Source: Clostridiales bacterium
Lineage (GTDB): Bacteria; Bacillota; Clostridia; Christensenellales; Pumilibacteraceae
NCBI GenBank assembly: GCA_029069015.1
Contig: JAIEBL010000386.1
Coordinates: 1 to 12,258 of the forward strand
Reading direction: 5' to 3'
DNA: 12,258 bases
Shown: positions 3,884-12,258 of the stretch, piece after piece
How the letters are laid out: each line of letters begins with the position of its first letter
How positions within the stretch are numbered: position 1 is the stretch's first letter
Translations under genes and position numbers: made by a program
The notes under the pieces: model-generated
What the model saw: the letters and a program-made list of their open reading frames with translations, nothing else
The model's database searches: none
Told to the model about the DNA's origin: nothing

Positions 3884-4882
3884 TTACTGTAATTTCGTGC
3901 CGCATTCGTTGCAGAACTTTGCGCCGGGAGTGACGGGGCTACCGCACTCGGGGGAGAACTTTTTGAGCGGAGAACCGCATTCGGGGCAGAACTTTGCGCC
4001 GGGAGTGATGCTTGCGTGGCACACCGAGCAGGTCAGACCGCCGCCCGTAGCACCCGCGCCTGCGGCGACGCCGCCCGCCATGTTGTTATTCAGTTGCATG
4101 CCCGCACCCACGCCGACGATCGTGCCCGTGGCGGAATGCTTTGCCGCTTCTTTGAGTGCGTCGGCTTGCGCCATTTGCGTATAGACATCCATGTTGCCGC
4201 GCATGATGCCCAACTTTGCGCTCTCGTCCACCGCCTTTTCGAGTTCGGGCGGCACGGACAGGTTTTCCACGTCGAACGCGGTCAGCGTGATCCCCAGCTC
4301 GTTGCAGCGCTCTTTCGACGCTTCTTTGACAGCATCCGAAAGTTCTTTATAGCGAAGCGTCATATCCGAGAGCGTAAGCCCCAGTTTACCGAACGCGCTC
4401 GAAATACCGCCCACGAGCATGGAGCGTAGCGTCACACAAACGTCGCCCGCGTAATAGATATCGGTAAGGCCGCAGTATTTTAAGAACTTGCAAGGGTCGG
4501 TGACTTTGAACGCGTACGAGCCGTGGCCTCTGAGGCGAATCACGCCTAAGTCTGTCTGCACGGGCACGGGGTTGGACGTACCCCAACGCACGGCGGTAAA
4601 TTCCTTGGTGTTGACGAAATACACTTCCGATTTAAAGGGCGTTTCGAAGCCGTACTTCCAGCTCAGCAGCTTCGTGATGATGGGCAGACTGTTGGTTTCG
4701 AGCTTATACATGCCCGGGCCGAACACGTCGGCGGTGACGCCTTTATCGCAGAAAACGGCAGCCTGCGTTTCGCGCACGGTGAGGGTCGAACCTTTTTTGA
4801 TCACGTCGCCCTTTAAGTTGAACTTTTGCACGACGACGTCGTAGTTTAAAAAGGGCAATTCGATATTTTTCAAGAATCCCAT
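3884..4882 (-). CDS. SPFH-domain protein with C-terminal zinc ribbons (YdjI-like)
   Basis: This 332-residue protein belongs to the YdjI-like SPFH (band-7) group. Such proteins oligomerise at membranes as scaffolds; in Bacillus, YdjI takes part in the PspA envelope-stress system. The SPFH region spans about 20-225 (e.g. GVIRLRGHGSYAFKVTDP 113-130, ELGITLTAFDVENLSVPPELEKA 195-217). No N-terminal membrane helix is evident, so membrane contact would be peripheral. A Gly/Ala-rich linker (251-282) leads to a zinc ribbon with Cys285, Cys288, Cys299 and Cys302. A second copy of the ribbon has Cys313, Cys324 and Cys327 but Ser310 where the first Cys should be. The ATG has AAGGAG six bases upstream, directly after the stop of the double-zinc-ribbon gene 12 bases away, so the pair is one operon. 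Family is secure; target and physiological role are not shown. Confidence 0.88.
   Translation of the reverse strand: MGFLKNIELPFLNYDVVVQKFNLKGDVIKKGSTLTVRETQAAVFCDKGVTADVFGPGMYKLETNSLPIITKLLSWKYGFETPFKSEVYFVNTKEFTAVRWGTSNPVPVQTDLGVIRLRGHGSYAFKVTDPCKFLKYCGLTDIYYAGDVCVTLRSMLVGGISSAFGKLGLTLSDMTLRYKELSDAVKEASKERCNELGITLTAFDVENLSVPPELEKAVDESAKLGIMRGNMDVYTQMAQADALKEAAKHSATGTIVGVGAGMQLNNNMAGGVAAGAGATGGGLTCSVCHASITPGAKFCPECGSPLKKFSPECGSPVTPGAKFCNECGTKLQ
3911..4008. repeat. Duplicated zinc-ribbon coding segment, 75-bp period
   Basis: The 23-base string beginning GCAGAACTTTGCGCCGGGAG occurs identically at 3911-3933 and 3986-4008, exactly 75 bases (25 codons) apart. It encodes the TPGAKFC part of both ribbons in the SPFH protein. 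Identity over 23 bases with no synonymous change points to a recent in-frame tandem duplication of the ribbon, after which one Cys was lost. Confidence 0.85.
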
Positions 4883-4894
4883 AGTTTTCTCCTT

Positions 4895-6535
4895 TTAGTC
4901 CTTAAATTCCATTGTTTTGACGGCGTGCTCGAACACAGGCGCCCAATACCACCGATCTTTTCCGAGACAGTTCCAAGAGCCTATGCCCTGCTGCCCGCCG
5001 AACGAGAAGAAGAACATGGCGTTGTAGATGCTTTGGTCCGCGCCCTGGGTGATAAAGTCGATCATGAAGATATTGCGCTTGCGCGTAAAGCGTTGCGCCT
5101 CGCCGAACTTCGCACCGGGGTAAATGCCTTTGAGCGCGCTCAGCATCTGCTGACCGTACGCAAAGACGTCCTCTTCCTTCAACGCGCCGACGATATTCAG
5201 GTTCAGATTGACGGTCGAGTCGGGCGTGGTGTAGATATATTTGGGGGCGTTGGCGCGGTATTTGATGCGGCGCATCTCTTCGGGCATGACGATAAAGTTT
5301 TTGGGCATGATCGCCGTCACACGGTTATCAGCGACGGCCGCGCGCACGAATTTGACGTCGGGTAGCGTTGCGCCCTCGGGCATATCCGCACGGATGTTTT
5401 CGTAGTTGAGTCCGGGAATTTCGAATTTAAGCGCGTTGCCGTTGATGATGAATGTCGTGCCGCACGCCGAGCAGAACGCCGTTTTGCCGTCCGCTTCGAG
5501 CACGACGGGTGAGCCGCATTGCGTACAGATCATCGCCTCAGTGTCCTGACTGCGCTTGATATGTATTTCGTTGCCGCTCTTTCCCTCGCGTTTGTAGCCG
5601 CAGGAAATGCAGACGCCGTTTTCATCGAGCTCGCCGCCGCAATTCGGGCAAACGTTACCGACGAGCGTTTCGTCGGATACGTTCACGTTCAGTTCGGCGT
5701 CCGAAATAATGTTGACCGTGTCGGATTGTTTGTTTGCTTGCTTCGCCTGCCCTCCGCCGCCGTAGTGATACACGCGCCGCCCGTTTACACTAATATCCAG
5801 CGACGGTATGCGCATTTTGTCGGCGACGGCAACGAGTGCGTTCGTAAGATTATCCGTCAGGCGGTTAAGGTCTTCCTCCCGCTTTTTGCCGCGGGCATAG
5901 CTTACGAACAGCTCGTCGGCTTCCGTTTCCCTGTCCGTGGTTTCGGTAAGGCTGATTTCGGTTATGTAGCCCGTCTTGTAGTCGAGGTGCGAATCGGTTT
6001 TGTCCATACCGTGCACGTCTACGCGGAGCGCAAGCGTTTCGCCGCGAATCGCCCCCGCCGCCCATTGATCGATTGCATGGTACAAAATCTTCTCTTCGGC
6101 TTTTTGGACCGTTTCGCGGTTCTTTTTATACGCCTTGGTTAAAAGCTTGTGCGCCTCTTTGTTGCCATGCTGTTCGAGCACGACGTTGGATATATATTCC
6201 ATGAGCGGGTCTTTGTAGATGCAGTCTTTCATGCCGAACAGCCAACTGCCCACGAGCGCTGCTTCGAATCCGAAGTTATATATTGCGCCTTTTAAGTATT
6301 CAACGTCTTTGGCGACGAGCGTATCCTCGTTGATCCTGCGCCGTATGTAATAGGCACATGCGGATTCGTCGCCGTTGACGGTAAGCTTATACAAAAGCTC
6401 GGTGGGCGCGTTCTTATACAGTTCTACCTGCGATTCGAATTTTTCGAACAAATCCGCATACTGCTCGAAAATTTCCTCCACGACGTCCACACGGTTACCC
6501 TCAAATATGTCTTTCCATTGCTCGATACTTAACAT
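4895..6535 (-). CDS. Double TFIIB-type zinc-ribbon protein, partner of the SPFH protein
   Basis: This 546-residue cytoplasmic protein has no signal peptide or membrane helix. An alpha-helical N-terminal region (1-160) is followed by a mixed region (161-290). Then come two zinc ribbons, Cys296/299/309/312 and Cys337/340/355/358, of the type annotated as TFIIB-like in Firmicutes. Residues about 395-546 form a C-terminal alpha/beta domain (VTAIMPKNFIVMPEE...WAPVFEHAVKTMEF) whose pattern recalls the PsbP/DcrB/Mog1-like fold; that comparison is tentative. The ATG at 6535 has GAGG about seven bases upstream. It is the first gene of an operon with the SPFH gene, 12 bases apart. Similar zinc-ribbon/SPFH pairs occur in the ydjGHI part of the Bacillus pspA operon, so a membrane-surface or stress role is plausible. 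The function is not established. Confidence 0.8.
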   Translation of the reverse strand: MLSIEQWKDIFEGNRVDVVEEIFEQYADLFEKFESQVELYKNAPTELLYKLTVNGDESACAYYIRRRINEDTLVAKDVEYLKGAIYNFGFEAALVGSWLFGMKDCIYKDPLMEYISNVVLEQHGNKEAHKLLTKAYKKNRETVQKAEEKILYHAIDQWAAGAIRGETLALRVDVHGMDKTDSHLDYKTGYITEISLTETTDRETEADELFVSYARGKKREEDLNRLTDNLTNALVAVADKMRIPSLDISVNGRRVYHYGGGGQAKQANKQSDTVNIISDAELNVNVSDETLVGNVCPNCGGELDENGVCISCGYKREGKSGNEIHIKRSQDTEAMICTQCGSPVVLEADGKTAFCSACGTTFIINGNALKFEIPGLNYENIRADMPEGATLPDVKFVRAAVADNRVTAIMPKNFIVMPEEMRRIKYRANAPKYIYTTPDSTVNLNLNIVGALKEEDVFAYGQQMLSALKGIYPGAKFGEAQRFTRKRNIFMIDFITQGADQSIYNAMFFFSFGGQQGIGSWNCLGKDRWYWAPVFEHAVKTMEFKD

Positions 6536-7925: not shown

Positions 7926-10142
7926 TTATTCAAGAAAGCTTTCTACGAGCTGTTCGAGGTCTTCGTACGAGTGGAAGGAATTCGTGCTGTTGTAGAGGAC
8001 GATGCCGTATTTGTTTACGATGACGGTAAGCGGCCACATTCCCTCGCCGCCGAGTGCTTCATAGGTAAGGCAGGTGTTGCCCTCTAAATTGTCTTGCGCA
8101 AAGGTGAGCGTTGCGTTCGGCCATTTCTCGGAAATGAACTGCGGAACGTTGCGGGTGGACGAGCCGTGAATGGCGAGGACGTTGATATCCGGTTTATTCT
8201 TCGTCAGCGTATCGAAGTAGGGAATTTCGGCGACGCAGGGCGTGCACCAGGTCGCCCAGAAGTTGATGACCGTCAGCTTACCGCGTTTTTCATAGAGCGT
8301 AAAGCTGTCGTCCGAGCCGTAGAGCTGAACCGTAAAGTTAGGCGCGCGCTGTCCGACCTCGTAACCCTCTTCCGCGAGGAAGCTATCCACGAGCTGTTTG
8401 AGGTCATTGTACGATTGGAAAGAGTAAGTGCTATTGTACATGACAAATCCGTTCTCGTCCACGATTACGGTAAGCGGCCACGTGTCCGTACCGCCAAGTG
8501 CAGTAAAGGTAAGGCATTCATCGTTGTCAATATTATCTTGTGCAAAAGTAAGCGTGGCGTTCGGCCAGTTCTCAGCAATAACCGTGTCAACGTCGGCGTC
8601 GGATGCGCCGTGAATGGCAATTACGTTAATGTCCGATTTGTCCTCGGCGAGCGTATTGAAATAAGGGATTTCCACCAAGCAAGACGGGGAACCTGTATCC
8701 CAGAAATAAATAACCGTCATCTTGCCGCGATGGTCGTACAGCTTGAAACTGTCTTCCGAGCCACATAAAGTAACTGTAAAGTCGGGGGCAAGTTGCCCCA
8801 CCTTATAGCCCGTTTCAATGGGTTTACTGTTGCCCTTGTTGCCTTTGTCGATAAAGTTGTAGTAAACAAGCGCGGTGACGAGAAGGACGAGCGCGGCGAT
8901 GACCGCCGTCAGCTGCAACCAGAACGCTTTGCCGCGGCTTTTCTTCGCGGGTTTCGGTTCGACCGTTTTTGTGGATGCAGGCGCAATCGTTTCCGCACTT
9001 GTCCGCGTTACGATTTCGGTTTGCGCGCTTGTTGCCGTAGCTTGTGTGTCCGCGACGACGTTTGCCGCAAGCTGCGGCTCGGTCGCAAAGCTAAGCGGCT
9101 TTTCGATATTTTCCGTTTCTGTTGCCGTTTCGACTTCGGACGCATGCAAGAACAGCTTCGAGCCTTTCCAGCGGATCGCTTGCGTGGGGCAAGCGGGAAT
9201 GCACTGTCCGCAGTTGATGCATTCGTGGTCGCCCACGCGCTTGATGTCCATTTTGCAGACGGTGACGCATTTGCCGCAGTCCGTGCACTTTTCTTTGTCT
9301 ACCTTCACGCCGAGGAGAGCTATGCGGTTAAAGAAACCGTAGATCGCGCCAAGCGGGCAGAAGAAGCGGCAGAAGAAGCGGAAAATGAAAACAGACGCCA
9401 CGATAAAGACGATCAGCAGAGAGAACTTCCAGGCGAACTGCCCGCCGAGCATACCGAACATAGCGGAATTTTTGGGATTAATCAGCAGCCCGATTGCGCC
9501 GCCCAAAGTGCCCGCGGGACAGATGTATTTGCAAAAGCCGGGGAGCGGAACGTTGCGCCGCGAATACAAGAGTGGAATGATGATGACGAGCACGGCGAGC
9601 AGAACGTATTTAAAGTAGGAGAATATGCGCGTCACGCGGCTCTTTCTCAGTTTGGGCGTGCGGATCTTATACAGCAACTCCTGCACGAGCCCTACGGGGC
9701 AAAGGAAGCCGCAAATCGTACGCGCAAACATAATCGCAAAGATGGCGAGTATCCCTATCACGTAGTAAGGCGCGCGCACGCTGCTCTCCGCCAGCGCGTT
9801 CTGAAACGCGCCGAGCGGGCAAGCGCCCACCGCGCCCGGACAGGAATAGCAGTTGAGCCCAGGCACGCACATGTATTTCGTGGTCGGACTTTTGTAAATC
9901 TGTCCTTTTATGTACCCTTTTACATTCGCGTTATAAAGAAGCGTCGCGTATACCTGAATGAGCCGCCGCTTGCTCGGCATATGCGCGCGCAGCCATTCCC
10001 TAATCGTGCGGCGCTTGTGCGGGATGCCCGTGTCCGCTTCCGTCTTTTTGACAAGTTTATGATGCCGTATGCCCTGCCACACGAAGAACGCGATGACGGC
10101 GGCGAGAACGACGCACAATACTATGATGATCGCAATATTCAT
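7926..10142 (-). CDS. Membrane polyferredoxin fused to two tandem thioredoxin-like (TlpA/ResA) domains
   Basis: This 738-residue protein joins cytoplasmic Fe-S chemistry to extracytoplasmic thiol chemistry. Residues 1-330 are a NapH/YccM-type module: helices near 3-22, 125-143, 175-193 and 240-257, CP motifs at Cys98/101/108, 144/148, 204/208 and 258/262, and two 4Fe-4S sets (Cys286/289/292/296; Cys308/311/314/318). A Thr/Ala/Glu-rich linker (335-400) leads to a fifth helix (407-427). Two thioredoxin-like domains follow: 445-592 reads FWDTGSPSC (Ser485, Cys488) and 593-738 reads FWATWCTPC (Cys633, Cys636). Both keep the cis-Pro (Pro556, Pro704) and an extra Cys (543, 691). So only the second domain has an intact CXXC. 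The ATG has GAGGAG six bases upstream, overlapping the TGA of the CXXC-tail gene. A role in reducing external disulfides or peroxides is inferred; no partner oxidoreductase is visible. Confidence 0.9.
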   Translation of the reverse strand: MNIAIIIVLCVVLAAVIAFFVWQGIRHHKLVKKTEADTGIPHKRRTIREWLRAHMPSKRRLIQVYATLLYNANVKGYIKGQIYKSPTTKYMCVPGLNCYSCPGAVGACPLGAFQNALAESSVRAPYYVIGILAIFAIMFARTICGFLCPVGLVQELLYKIRTPKLRKSRVTRIFSYFKYVLLAVLVIIIPLLYSRRNVPLPGFCKYICPAGTLGGAIGLLINPKNSAMFGMLGGQFAWKFSLLIVFIVASVFIFRFFCRFFCPLGAIYGFFNRIALLGVKVDKEKCTDCGKCVTVCKMDIKRVGDHECINCGQCIPACPTQAIRWKGSKLFLHASEVETATETENIEKPLSFATEPQLAANVVADTQATATSAQTEIVTRTSAETIAPASTKTVEPKPAKKSRGKAFWLQLTAVIAALVLLVTALVYYNFIDKGNKGNSKPIETGYKVGQLAPDFTVTLCGSEDSFKLYDHRGKMTVIYFWDTGSPSCLVEIPYFNTLAEDKSDINVIAIHGASDADVDTVIAENWPNATLTFAQDNIDNDECLTFTALGGTDTWPLTVIVDENGFVMYNSTYSFQSYNDLKQLVDSFLAEEGYEVGQRAPNFTVQLYGSDDSFTLYEKRGKLTVINFWATWCTPCVAEIPYFDTLTKNKPDINVLAIHGSSTRNVPQFISEKWPNATLTFAQDNLEGNTCLTYEALGGEGMWPLTVIVNKYGIVLYNSTNSFHSYEDLEQLVESFLE
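7929..8810 (-). repeat. Tandem duplication of the thioredoxin-like domain (444-bp period)
   Basis: Both active-site Cys to Cys and cis-Pro to cis-Pro distances are exactly 148 codons, so the two domains are in-register copies. Well over half of the aligned residues are identical by eye, including long blocks such as WPNATLTFAQDN and WPLTVIV. Local DNA similarity is also clear (GCGTTCGGCCA in both copies). The unit proximal to the membrane (about 8367-8810) carries the altered active site; the distal unit (7929-8366) keeps it. Confidence 0.88.
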
Positions 10143-10152
10143 ACCGTTCTCC

Positions 10153-10962
10153 TCAGCCTAACCCGATACATTCGGTGCAGATGTTAACCGCCTTTATCAT
10201 GACGTCGTGCGCCCCGCCGTTGAGCGCGCCCACGATGATAAATACAACCGCGACGCAGAACACCGCGCCGCGCGTAATCCAAAGCGCAAGGTCGGTCGAA
10301 AGCGCACGCAGTACTTTTTGATACCATTTAAGCGGTTTCTGCGGCTCGTCCGACGCGTTACTTTTGTCGCCGTGCTTTAACATGGTTTTGAGCGCGCTTA
10401 CCTGCTGCTTTGCAAGGATGCCGTTGGTGATCGCTGCCGCAACGAGTACGAGAAAAGAAACGGCAACGCAAGGAAGCACGTGGCGCACCATCGCAAAAAT
10501 TTCAGCCGTGATGTTTTCGCCTTTGAAGTTGGCGGTTTTTAACAGATAGCAAAGCGAGCTGATCGCGCAAATAAGTGCAACGGAAAACGCCCCGCACCAC
10601 ACGATCAGTCGAGCAAGTTTCAGCGTTTTGTACTTCTTTGCCGCTTCATCGTATTCCTCGTCCTTACCGCTCGCCGCCACTTTCTCAGAGAGCAGACGCA
10701 CCGCGTTTTCGGGCGTGGGCTTGGCCTTTACTTCATACAGCGGGAAGATCGCGCCGCAAGCGATCACGCCCACGAGCAGGATAAAGGGGATCGCCAGCAT
10801 CTTTAATCGCTTGGCAACGATTGCGCGAGAAAAAACGACGCCCGTGCCCCGCCCCGAATAGTAAATGTCGGCGGCAACGCAAATCAGCGCAATGCCCATT
10901 GCCACCGAAAACACCCCGACCAAGATCGAGTATAGTAAACGTATTTTTTCCGATTTATTCAT
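10153..10962 (-). CDS. Five-helix membrane protein with CD1871A-like C-terminal CXXC tail
   Basis: This 269-residue membrane protein starts MNKSEKIR. Predicted helices are about 12-33, 55-76, 119-142, 161-182 and 228-246. The loops after helices 2 and 4 are long and basic, as expected for the cytoplasm, which puts the C-terminus outside. It ends IKAVNICTECIGLG, with Cys262 and Cys265 in a CXXC. That ending matches the small clostridial family named CD1871A (CXXC motif-containing), here fused to a larger membrane protein. The gene is followed ten bases later by the polyferredoxin-thioredoxin gene, so the CXXC could relay electrons to the thioredoxin domains. I chose the ATG at 10962: the upstream GTG at 10983 falls inside the promoter spacer. 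No Shine-Dalgarno site is seen, in line with a nearly leaderless mRNA. The redox role is inferred. Confidence 0.8.
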   Translation of the reverse strand: MNKSEKIRLLYSILVGVFSVAMGIALICVAADIYYSGRGTGVVFSRAIVAKRLKMLAIPFILLVGVIACGAIFPLYEVKAKPTPENAVRLLSEKVAASGKDEEYDEAAKKYKTLKLARLIVWCGAFSVALICAISSLCYLLKTANFKGENITAEIFAMVRHVLPCVAVSFLVLVAAAITNGILAKQQVSALKTMLKHGDKSNASDEPQKPLKWYQKVLRALSTDLALWITRGAVFCVAVVFIIVGALNGGAHDVMIKAVNICTECIGLG

Positions 10963-10973
10963 AGGTGTGTATA

Positions 10974-11002
10974 AATATACCACAAAACGCGCTTTCTGTC
11001 AA
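10974..11002 (-). promoter_or_regulatory. Sigma-A promoter of the redox operon, predicting a near-leaderless mRNA
   Basis: On the minus strand, TTGACA (11002-10997) and TATATT (10979-10974) are separated by 17 bases, with TG one base before the -10. Transcription should start at about 10966-10970, only four to eight bases before the ATG at 10962. That leaves no room for a ribosome-binding site. Confidence 0.8.
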
Positions 11003-11069
11003 GTACGGGCAGAGTATGAAGATAGTGAAGAAGTTAAAATGAAGAGTGAAAAGGTAGAGTGTTCACGTT

Positions 11070-11162
11070 CCCCGTCATTGCGAGCCTCAGGCGAAGCAAT
11101 CCAGAGAAAAAGCAAGTTGGGGTCTGGATTGCTTCGTCGCTTCGCTCCTCGCAATGACGGGG
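11070..11162. repeat. Dispersed palindromic repeat B (93 bp)
   Basis: The outer arms CCCCGTCATTGCGAG (11070-11084) and its exact complement (11148-11162) are 15 bases each. The inner arms CGAAGCAATCCAGA (11092-11105) and TCTGGATTGCTTCG (11123-11136) are 14 bases each around a 17-base loop. From general knowledge, the CGTCATTGCGAG...GAAGCAATCC pattern is a widespread high-copy intergenic repeat. It has no coding sequence and lies between the redox-operon promoter and the terminator of the neighbouring gene. The flanking 11003-11069 is purine-rich with no evident gene. Confidence 0.8.
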
Positions 11163-11174
11163 ATAACAAAACAA

Positions 11175-11208
11175 AGAACGGCGGCAACATGTTCGTTGCC
11201 GCCATTCT
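11175..11208 (-). terminator. Terminator of the lipocalin-like gene
   Basis: AGAACGGCGGCAAC (11175-11188) pairs with GTTGCCGCCATTCT (11195-11208) around a 6-base loop. On the minus strand the one mismatch becomes a G-U pair, giving a 14-bp stem followed by a broken T run (TTGTTTTGTT). It starts 23 bases past the stop codon at 11232. Confidence 0.8.
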
Positions 11209-11231
11209 TTTATTGACCTTTCGTATTGCGT

Positions 11232-12258
11232 TTAGTTCGCTTGTCTGGTATAGGTTTCCGACTCGTCGTTCGAGTCTTTCATCGTCAGGGAATTTCCGTT
11301 GAGCGTGACGGTGTAATTTTCCTCGGGGAAAATATCGTCGGCGGGAAGCGTAAAGGTATACGTGCTGCCGTTTTTCGTCCACGTGCCGCTAAGAGTGCCC
11401 ATGTCGTCCTCAAGGCTCCAAGTGCCGTCGGCATTCACCGTAAGCGTTTTGCTGCCGCCGAGCCCCGTGAGCTTATACACGCCGACGATCGGATCGTCCT
11501 GCAAAGCAAACACGAAATCGATCGGGCCATCCACTTTACTCTCGTCTCCGGTAGCAACCGCAAACGTAAGCGTTTTCGCGGTGGGATCGAATGTGACGCT
11601 GAAAGTCAAATCGACGCGGACAAAATCACTACCCACTATATCCAACCCGCCTTCCTTCGCGGTAAACGTATAGGTATTTTCGTCCGTCTTTTCCCAAGCG
11701 CCCGTGTAGACCGTCTTTTGCTGCATCATCTGGGTCGTCATGATCGTAAACCCGTATCTCTTGTGTACGGTAAGCAGGTACTCGTTCCCCTCGCAATTGG
11801 TTTGAGGATTTCCTTCTTCATCTACGTAGCTTACGAGCGTATAGCTGCCCACGATCTGGTCGGGTACGATCTCGTCATCGTAGTAGTAGAGCGGGAACAT
11901 CCATTTGGAATCTGCATCGTCTGCGTTAATACAGGCAGAAAGCTGATCCGTGTTGAGCGCATAGAACGTTTCAAGGAACTCTTTCAGTTCTTCCGTCAGC
12001 GGATAGACGCCGTCTGCGTTTACATAATTCGTATAGCAGGCATTCACGTCGAGCGCGCTCGGGATCACGTTGTTTTGCGTCTTATCCCGATCGTAATTCT
12101 TAAAGCCGCGCAGGAAATAGCGATAGTCGGTTCTGTCGAAGCCGTAGGGCGCTTTCGCTACGGTTTTAACGTAACTGAAATAAGAATTCTCTTTGTCTAA
12201 GTAGGCAAGCGGTTCACCGATGCTGAATCTGTCCGCGCCGACTTTTTCCTTAAGCATG
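11232..12258 (-). CDS. C-terminal part of a protein with two lipocalin-like beta modules (partial)
   Basis: At least 341 residues are visible, and the frame is open to the window edge. The Met encoded at 12257-12255 is probably internal, because no upstream region can be seen to test it. Residues 1-130 are mixed alpha/beta with no family I recognise (e.g. YGFDRTDYRYFLRGFKNYDRDK). Two beta-rich modules follow, each opening IVGxY and closing in a GxW...YTFT strand: 135-200 (IVGSYTLVSY...GAWEKTDENTYTFTA) and 257-304 (IVGVYKLTG...GTWTKNGSTYTFTLP). Such lipocalin-like repeats are common in secreted lipoproteins of gut Firmicutes. The composition is acidic, Thr-rich and low in Lys/Arg in this half, fitting an exported protein. 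A signal peptide would lie outside the window. A hairpin terminator follows. Function unknown. Confidence 0.75.
   Translation of the reverse strand, partial: MLKEKVGADRFSIGEPLAYLDKENSYFSYVKTVAKAPYGFDRTDYRYFLRGFKNYDRDKTQNNVIPSALDVNACYTNYVNADGVYPLTEELKEFLETFYALNTDQLSACINADDADSKWMFPLYYYDDEIVPDQIVGSYTLVSYVDEEGNPQTNCEGNEYLLTVHKRYGFTIMTTQMMQQKTVYTGAWEKTDENTYTFTAKEGGLDIVGSDFVRVDLTFSVTFDPTAKTLTFAVATGDESKVDGPIDFVFALQDDPIVGVYKLTGLGGSKTLTVNADGTWSLEDDMGTLSGTWTKNGSTYTFTLPADDIFPEENYTVTLNGNSLTMKDSNDESETYTRQAN

Follow-up and report, generated by a model that had tools for sequence, protein, structure and literature searches.

The closest described systems each share some parts with the protein analysed below. 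Thioredoxins of the ResA/TlpA/Etrx type are fed by CcdA/DsbD (4nmu, 1st9, 4hqs, 4hqz; PMC3914529), and NapH-like systems, in which a membrane Fe-S module has been proposed to mediate trans-membrane electron transport, have flavinylated domains or respiratory enzymes as their coupling partners (PMC8238504). Thioredoxin folds that lack catalytic activity form part of the redox chain in QSOX, with the domain order Trx1, non-catalytic Trx2, pseudo-Erv and Erv (PMC3616962), and in PDI, with the order a-b-b'-a' (PMC4030966). Finally, a preprint (PMC12637426) describes a 'novel operon' of gut Clostridia that consists of a 4Fe-4S protein, a TlpA family disulfide reductase and a CxxC protein. This three-protein redox operon is reported there to predict immune side effects of cancer therapy, so the biochemistry of such operons is of interest to readers beyond the niche.

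Here we analyze a gene from a stretch of 12,258 nucleotides, hereinafter the window, that encodes a polyferredoxin fused to two TlpA-like domains, the membrane-proximal D1 and the distal D2. The reading that we favor, with a probability of roughly 60%, is that the protein is an Fe-S-driven trans-membrane thiol-reducing core in which D1 is a redox-dead, tandem-duplicated pseudo-thioredoxin that serves as a spacer or docking arm.

Gene architecture and the upstream CXXC partner

The order of the parts in the window protein (Table 1) bears out the original prediction of a polyferredoxin fused to tandem thioredoxin domains, the first broken and the second with an intact CTPC. The cysteines of the membrane module (CXXXC pairs 144/148, 204/208 and 258/262 and the cluster C92/C98/C101/C108) are invariant across 40 aligned sequences. 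Matches to PF12801 (42.2 bits, cut-off 22) and PF00037 (36.7 bits, cut-off 21.1), together with two Fer4 motifs that would face the cytoplasm, place the protein among the NapH-like membrane ferredoxins; it is called NapH-like and not NapH because its score against TIGR02163 (NapH/MauN), 82.8 bits, lies under the curated cut-off of 213.05. The sequence KPAKKSRGK directly precedes the anchor helix, which by the positive-inside rule would be oriented with its N-terminus inside and its C-terminus outside.

D2 is a TlpA/ResA-like thioredoxin with an AhpC-TSA/Redoxin match, a CXXC motif and the cis-Pro; its third cysteine, judging from the spacing to the cis-Pro, may be the counterpart of human thioredoxin Cys62. 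The predicted model shows the full ResA fold for D1 as well, but the CXXC motif is broken, so that D1 is a pseudo-member of the family by fold only. The two domains are 63% identical (dN 0.247, dS 1.30 by NG86, the latter near saturation) and differ at five of the eight active-site residues. A sequencing or assembly error at Ser485 can be dismissed in view of this degree of divergence and of the occurrence on two contigs.

Table 1. Coordinates of the fusion gene, its domains and motifs, and the adjoining partner gene in the window
Feature	Position	Strand	Remark
Whole gene: NapH-like polyferredoxin, anchor helix, TlpA-like D1, TlpA-like D2	7926..10142	-	738 aa
NapH-like module, residues 1-330	9153..10142	-	Fer4_5 match
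Two Fer4 motifs, residues 286-318, 8 Cys	9189..9287	-	
Anchor helix, residues 405-431	8850..8930	-	helix in predicted model
D1, membrane-proximal TlpA/ResA-like domain, residues 441-588	8379..8822	-	
D1 broken active site, S485-P-S-C488	8679..8690	-	
D1 third Cys, C543	8514..8516	-	
D2, distal TlpA/ResA-like domain, residues 589-738, intact	7929..8378	-	
D2 active site, C633-T-P-C636	8235..8246	-	
D2 third Cys, C691	8070..8072	-	optional within family
Operon partner, membrane protein up to 276 aa, CD1871A-type end	10153..10983	-	NF040920 match
CTEC of partner, within ...KAVNICTECIGLG at the C-terminus	10168..10179	-	

Directly upstream of the fusion gene, with 10 bases between them, lies the partner gene, which matches the CD1871A family (NF040920) with 36.5 bits (cut-off 32; 40.8 bits in the genome search) and is the only match to it in the draft genome at E 0.001. 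A literature search for CD1871A found no paper. At 76 of 91 distinct loci, the NapH core is preceded by an open frame that ends in a CXXCIG tail, and for the other 15 the CXXC partner is absent within the stretch examined. Measured from stop to stop, the CXXC frames next to stand-alone NapH genes are mostly 53-84 residues long (12 of the 13 with a partner, the longer one being located at a contig end), and those next to fusions mostly 228-419 residues. Eight fusion loci of one family (L144, L155, L157, L158, L159, L143, L145 and L156) show no upstream CXXCIG partner in the stretch examined; candidate readings are that they use another partner or that the gene is located elsewhere.

Several other features of the window were observed. 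A promoter-like site at 10974-11002 (minus strand; 11 of 12 matches, and a TG ahead of the second hexamer), of a kind found about as often as chance expects, overlaps the GTG start of the CTEC gene at 10983, and the true start of this gene may be the ATG at 10962. Between the CTEC gene and the neighbor gene at 11232-12257 (minus strand), which has a weak lipocalin-like C-terminal match (Lipocalin_4, 21.6 bits against a cut-off of 22.4), there is a terminator-like stem of 17 pairs (11173-11210), the count of such stems being near the shuffled mean. The frames on both strands of 10999-11302 read ...LRASGEAIQRKS...LLRRFAPRNDG and SLRGAKRRSN...SPEARNDG, which from its look may be a dispersed intergenic repeat. 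At 3884-6535 (minus strand), an SPFH/Band_7 protein with zinc ribbons adjoins a 546-aa protein with weak zinc-ribbon matches.

Prevalence of the fusion and the slot before the last TlpA domain

The combination of a membrane Fe-S module with thioredoxin-like domains had been considered unusual. This goes too far for the fusion itself: fusions of NapH-like polyferredoxins with a TlpA domain occur commonly in the order to which the window belongs, and this base architecture is less rare than first assumed. Relatives of P0005 at E 1e-60 are present in 105 of the 396 genomes of the order, among which 51 have a frame of at least 434 aa, here called long, and 54 a shorter one of the stand-alone type, a split made by open-frame length and not by domain content. 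Within the family of the window's genome, 24 of 74 genomes contain a relative. Gut samples are the source of many of the named relatives. A literature search of titles and abstract openings, with thin coverage of subscription journals, returned no description of a fusion of this kind that contains a dead TlpA copy.

A census of the fusion was drawn from 256 proteins and loci, the protein searches contributing the best 120 of 164 and the best 120 of 456 relatives; after removal of 17 entries without TlpA in frame, 5 duplicates and 1 entry without a NapH match, 233 distinct fusion proteins remained. For each of these, the length of the slot between the anchor helix and the last TlpA domain was determined. 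It is shorter than 60 residues in 198 proteins; the other 35 have slots of 60 residues or more, 28 of them with a length of 126-163. The protein L141 (G331) has an insert before the anchor helix, on the cytoplasmic side, with a weak match to DUF2188 (13.1 bits, cut-off 22).

At least one further secure TlpA-like domain occupies the slot in 19 of the 35 proteins, giving 20 such domains because P0002 has two. The cysteine-free slots of L096 and L017 were kept apart from this set since their matches to the TlpA profile are weak (probabilities of 7.5 and 10.3, compared with 0.97 and 2.35 for the best among 20 shuffled copies). Other lineages have placed other domains in the position of D1 or left it empty. 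Three kinds of such domains fill 11 slots: a common one, recognized by eye from the signature G.G(T/S)...P(Y/F), in L108, L109, L113, L018, L122, L123, L129 and L132, a second in L133 and L134, and a third in P0010. The TlpA profile gave near-zero values for the three of these eleven slot domains against which it was run (L113, L134 and P0010), and Pfam scans of the whole proteins P0010, L113, L018, L133 and L108 yielded no match over the cut-off within the slot. By eye, the P0010 slot has a lipocalin-like look. The last three slots of at least 60 residues (L145, P0165 and L156; 62-81 residues) include a repetitive linker in L145.

These counts bear on an alternative in which D1 is a pseudo-enzyme that specifically docks either the CTEC partner or D2 substrates, so that, unlike in a passive spacer, its surface matters. 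The retained and constrained fold of D1 speaks for such a role, but relatives with the same kind of partner hold other domains in the slot, and 198 of the 233 lack a slot domain altogether; we consider it unlikely. The same 198 proteins indicate that a spacer is not required in general, which has to be kept in mind for the favored reading of D1 as a spacer or docking arm.

Active-site loss and origins of the proximal copies

The last TlpA domain has a CXXC motif, and each of Cys633, Cys636, Glu639 and cis-Pro704, in all 233 proteins, a count favored by the sampling because NFWATWC was one of the two genome-scan patterns and the protein searches scored likeness to D1-D2 pairs. Among the 20 secure proximal domains, 17 have no cysteine at either CXXC position, one (the window D1) has kept a single cysteine and two have kept both. 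The expectation that two-domain homologues always lose the same cysteine thus fails, but the original suggestion that D1 is not an enzyme is strengthened; most likely it is none. The two exceptions, P0030, with copies that are 99% identical, and L143, a fusion of two dissimilar active domains, retain both active sites, so the tandem is not always a dead domain joined to a live one. Intact motifs in both domains, which in close relatives were held to speak against the idea of a broken relay or binding domain, thus occur in these two among the 19 secure tandem proteins, neither of them close on the NapH tree.

The fold core has been retained: in the 19 aligned proximal copies (L143 was left out of this alignment), Phe628 and Asp684 are present in 19, Phe681 and Tyr717 in 18 and Trp629 in 17. 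The cis-Pro is present in 12 of these copies. The third cysteine, found in 86 of the 233 last domains and 2 of the 19 aligned proximal copies, seems to be an optional inherited residue. With Cys488, Glu491, Pro493 and the cis-Pro all retained, the window D1 is at an early stage, the damage to its active site being an early instance of a loss that recurs among the relatives. A monothiol relay, in which Cys488 (with Cys543 or Cys460) would hand electrons to D2, draws on the survival of Cys488, Cys543 and the cis-Pro in this copy, but is improbable in view of the 17 copies without a cysteine at either CXXC position and of the single TlpA domain in the closest relative, P0006; as a general purpose of the proximal copies, the relay once proposed for Cys488 and Cys543 finds no support.

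The phylogenetic analyses indicate that the tandem originated more than once. On the domain tree (85 rows), the proximal label, carried by 19 rows including the intact copy of P0030, requires at least 6 changes, 5 of which are forced by well-supported branches. The AU test rejects a single clade of all 19 proximal rows (p 0.0002) and also a single group of the ten shorter-branched dead copies, a group picked after the tree was built (p 0.0004). One ancient duplication behind all proximal copies is ruled out by these tests unless gene conversion mimicked the pattern. On the NapH tree, with 114 rows chosen from the census proteins and loci, the dead-tandem label needs 12 changes, 6 of them forced, or 10 without two unsure rows. 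The window D1 clusters with its own D2 and with P0006 (support 98/98), whose NapH part is 90% identical to that of the window protein. The plain reading of these sequence comparisons is repeated duplication; part of the pattern might also have been produced by gene conversion among long-standing copies or by an ancient tandem that was lost many times.

Branches are longer in the proximal copies (0.55 for D1 against 0.19 for D2 in the window protein, 0.45 against 0.10 in P0004). This difference, the one cysteine left in the window D1 and the fresh copy in P0030 are what would be expected if D1 were a redundant, functionless duplicate in decay. We nevertheless regard decay as highly unlikely, because the loss hits the proximal copy in the tandems found and spares the core even on long branches, dN is well under dS, and other domains also occupy slots; the open frames are no argument here because openness was a search condition, and broken relatives would have escaped detection since the frames analysed were open by construction.

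Returning to D1 as a redox-dead spacer or docking arm, we see about even odds for a broader scenario in which the slot is a modular feature of Fe-S-driven thiol reductases of Clostridia and was filled repeatedly, either by unrelated folds or by duplication of the protein's own thioredoxin followed by one-way death of the proximal copy. The pseudo-enzymes would then form a graded series that starts with P0030 (both sites intact), continues with the window protein (one cysteine left) and ends with the P0050/P0056/P0058 group. If this is true, a graded series of enzyme-to-scaffold conversions can be followed within one protein slot.

A possible electron route and its relation to known systems

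Under the favored reading, a cytoplasmic, ferredoxin-like donor of low potential would reduce the two Fer4 clusters, and electrons would cross the membrane through the NapH-like membrane part to the outward CTEC of the partner and then to the CXXC of D2, which would reduce extracytoplasmic disulphides. The window protein probably carries electrons outward to thioredoxin; this direction, like the topology, we infer from the domain arrangement. D1, with its fold kept and catalysis lost, would take no part in the redox chemistry and would act as a spacer or docking arm between the membrane and the working domain. The repeated gain of dead in-between domains in the relatives suggests such an arm and not a second enzyme.

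None of the 18 Pfam matches of the window protein at E 0.01 is to PF02683 (DsbD_TM), and the window's draft genome has no match to this domain at E 0.001, which is weak evidence for the absence of DsbD/CcdA because this genome is 84.8% complete. DsbD_TM scores over the cut-off in 1 of the 51 genomes with a long frame vs 64 of the 345 others (Fisher p 0.001, ignoring kinship), which fits an Fe-S route replacing CcdA/DsbD. If so, the supply of outward reducing power in anaerobes without detectable DsbD/CcdA becomes testable.

In L143 (G361:C29), the NapH-TlpA fusion carries an additional part, which contains repeats of Ig-like appearance (judged by eye) and a TlpA domain. A separate relative of this part with a CTYC motif, L161 (G000:C124:2181-2492), is encoded in the window's genome (24% identity over 564 residues, E 5e-31). 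L161 is probably secreted and is a candidate electron acceptor, for which the one fused case is a lead rather than proof.

Compared with the systems introduced above, D2 has the fold and CXXC motif of the ResA/TlpA/Etrx thioredoxins and the same putative function in extracytoplasmic reduction, but in the window protein an Fe-S membrane module stands in place of CcdA/DsbD, the parts are fused and there is an extra dead domain (PMC3914529). The membrane module resembles those of NapH-like systems but is coupled to thioredoxins instead of flavinylated domains or respiratory enzymes (PMC8238504). By analogy, the role of D1 may resemble that of the non-catalytic Trx2 in QSOX, although it lies outside the QSOX family (PMC3616962); QSOX and PDI (PMC4030966) are eukaryotic oxidases and isomerases of other families, without a membrane Fe-S module. 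The likeness to the operon of gut Clostridia (PMC12637426) is one of ingredients, a 4Fe-4S membrane protein, a TlpA-type reductase and a CXXC protein being adjacent in both; that operon consists of three genes, whereas in the window the 4Fe-4S protein and the reductase form a single chain, the CXXC tail belongs to a membrane protein of larger size, and a TlpA copy that is dead has been inserted.
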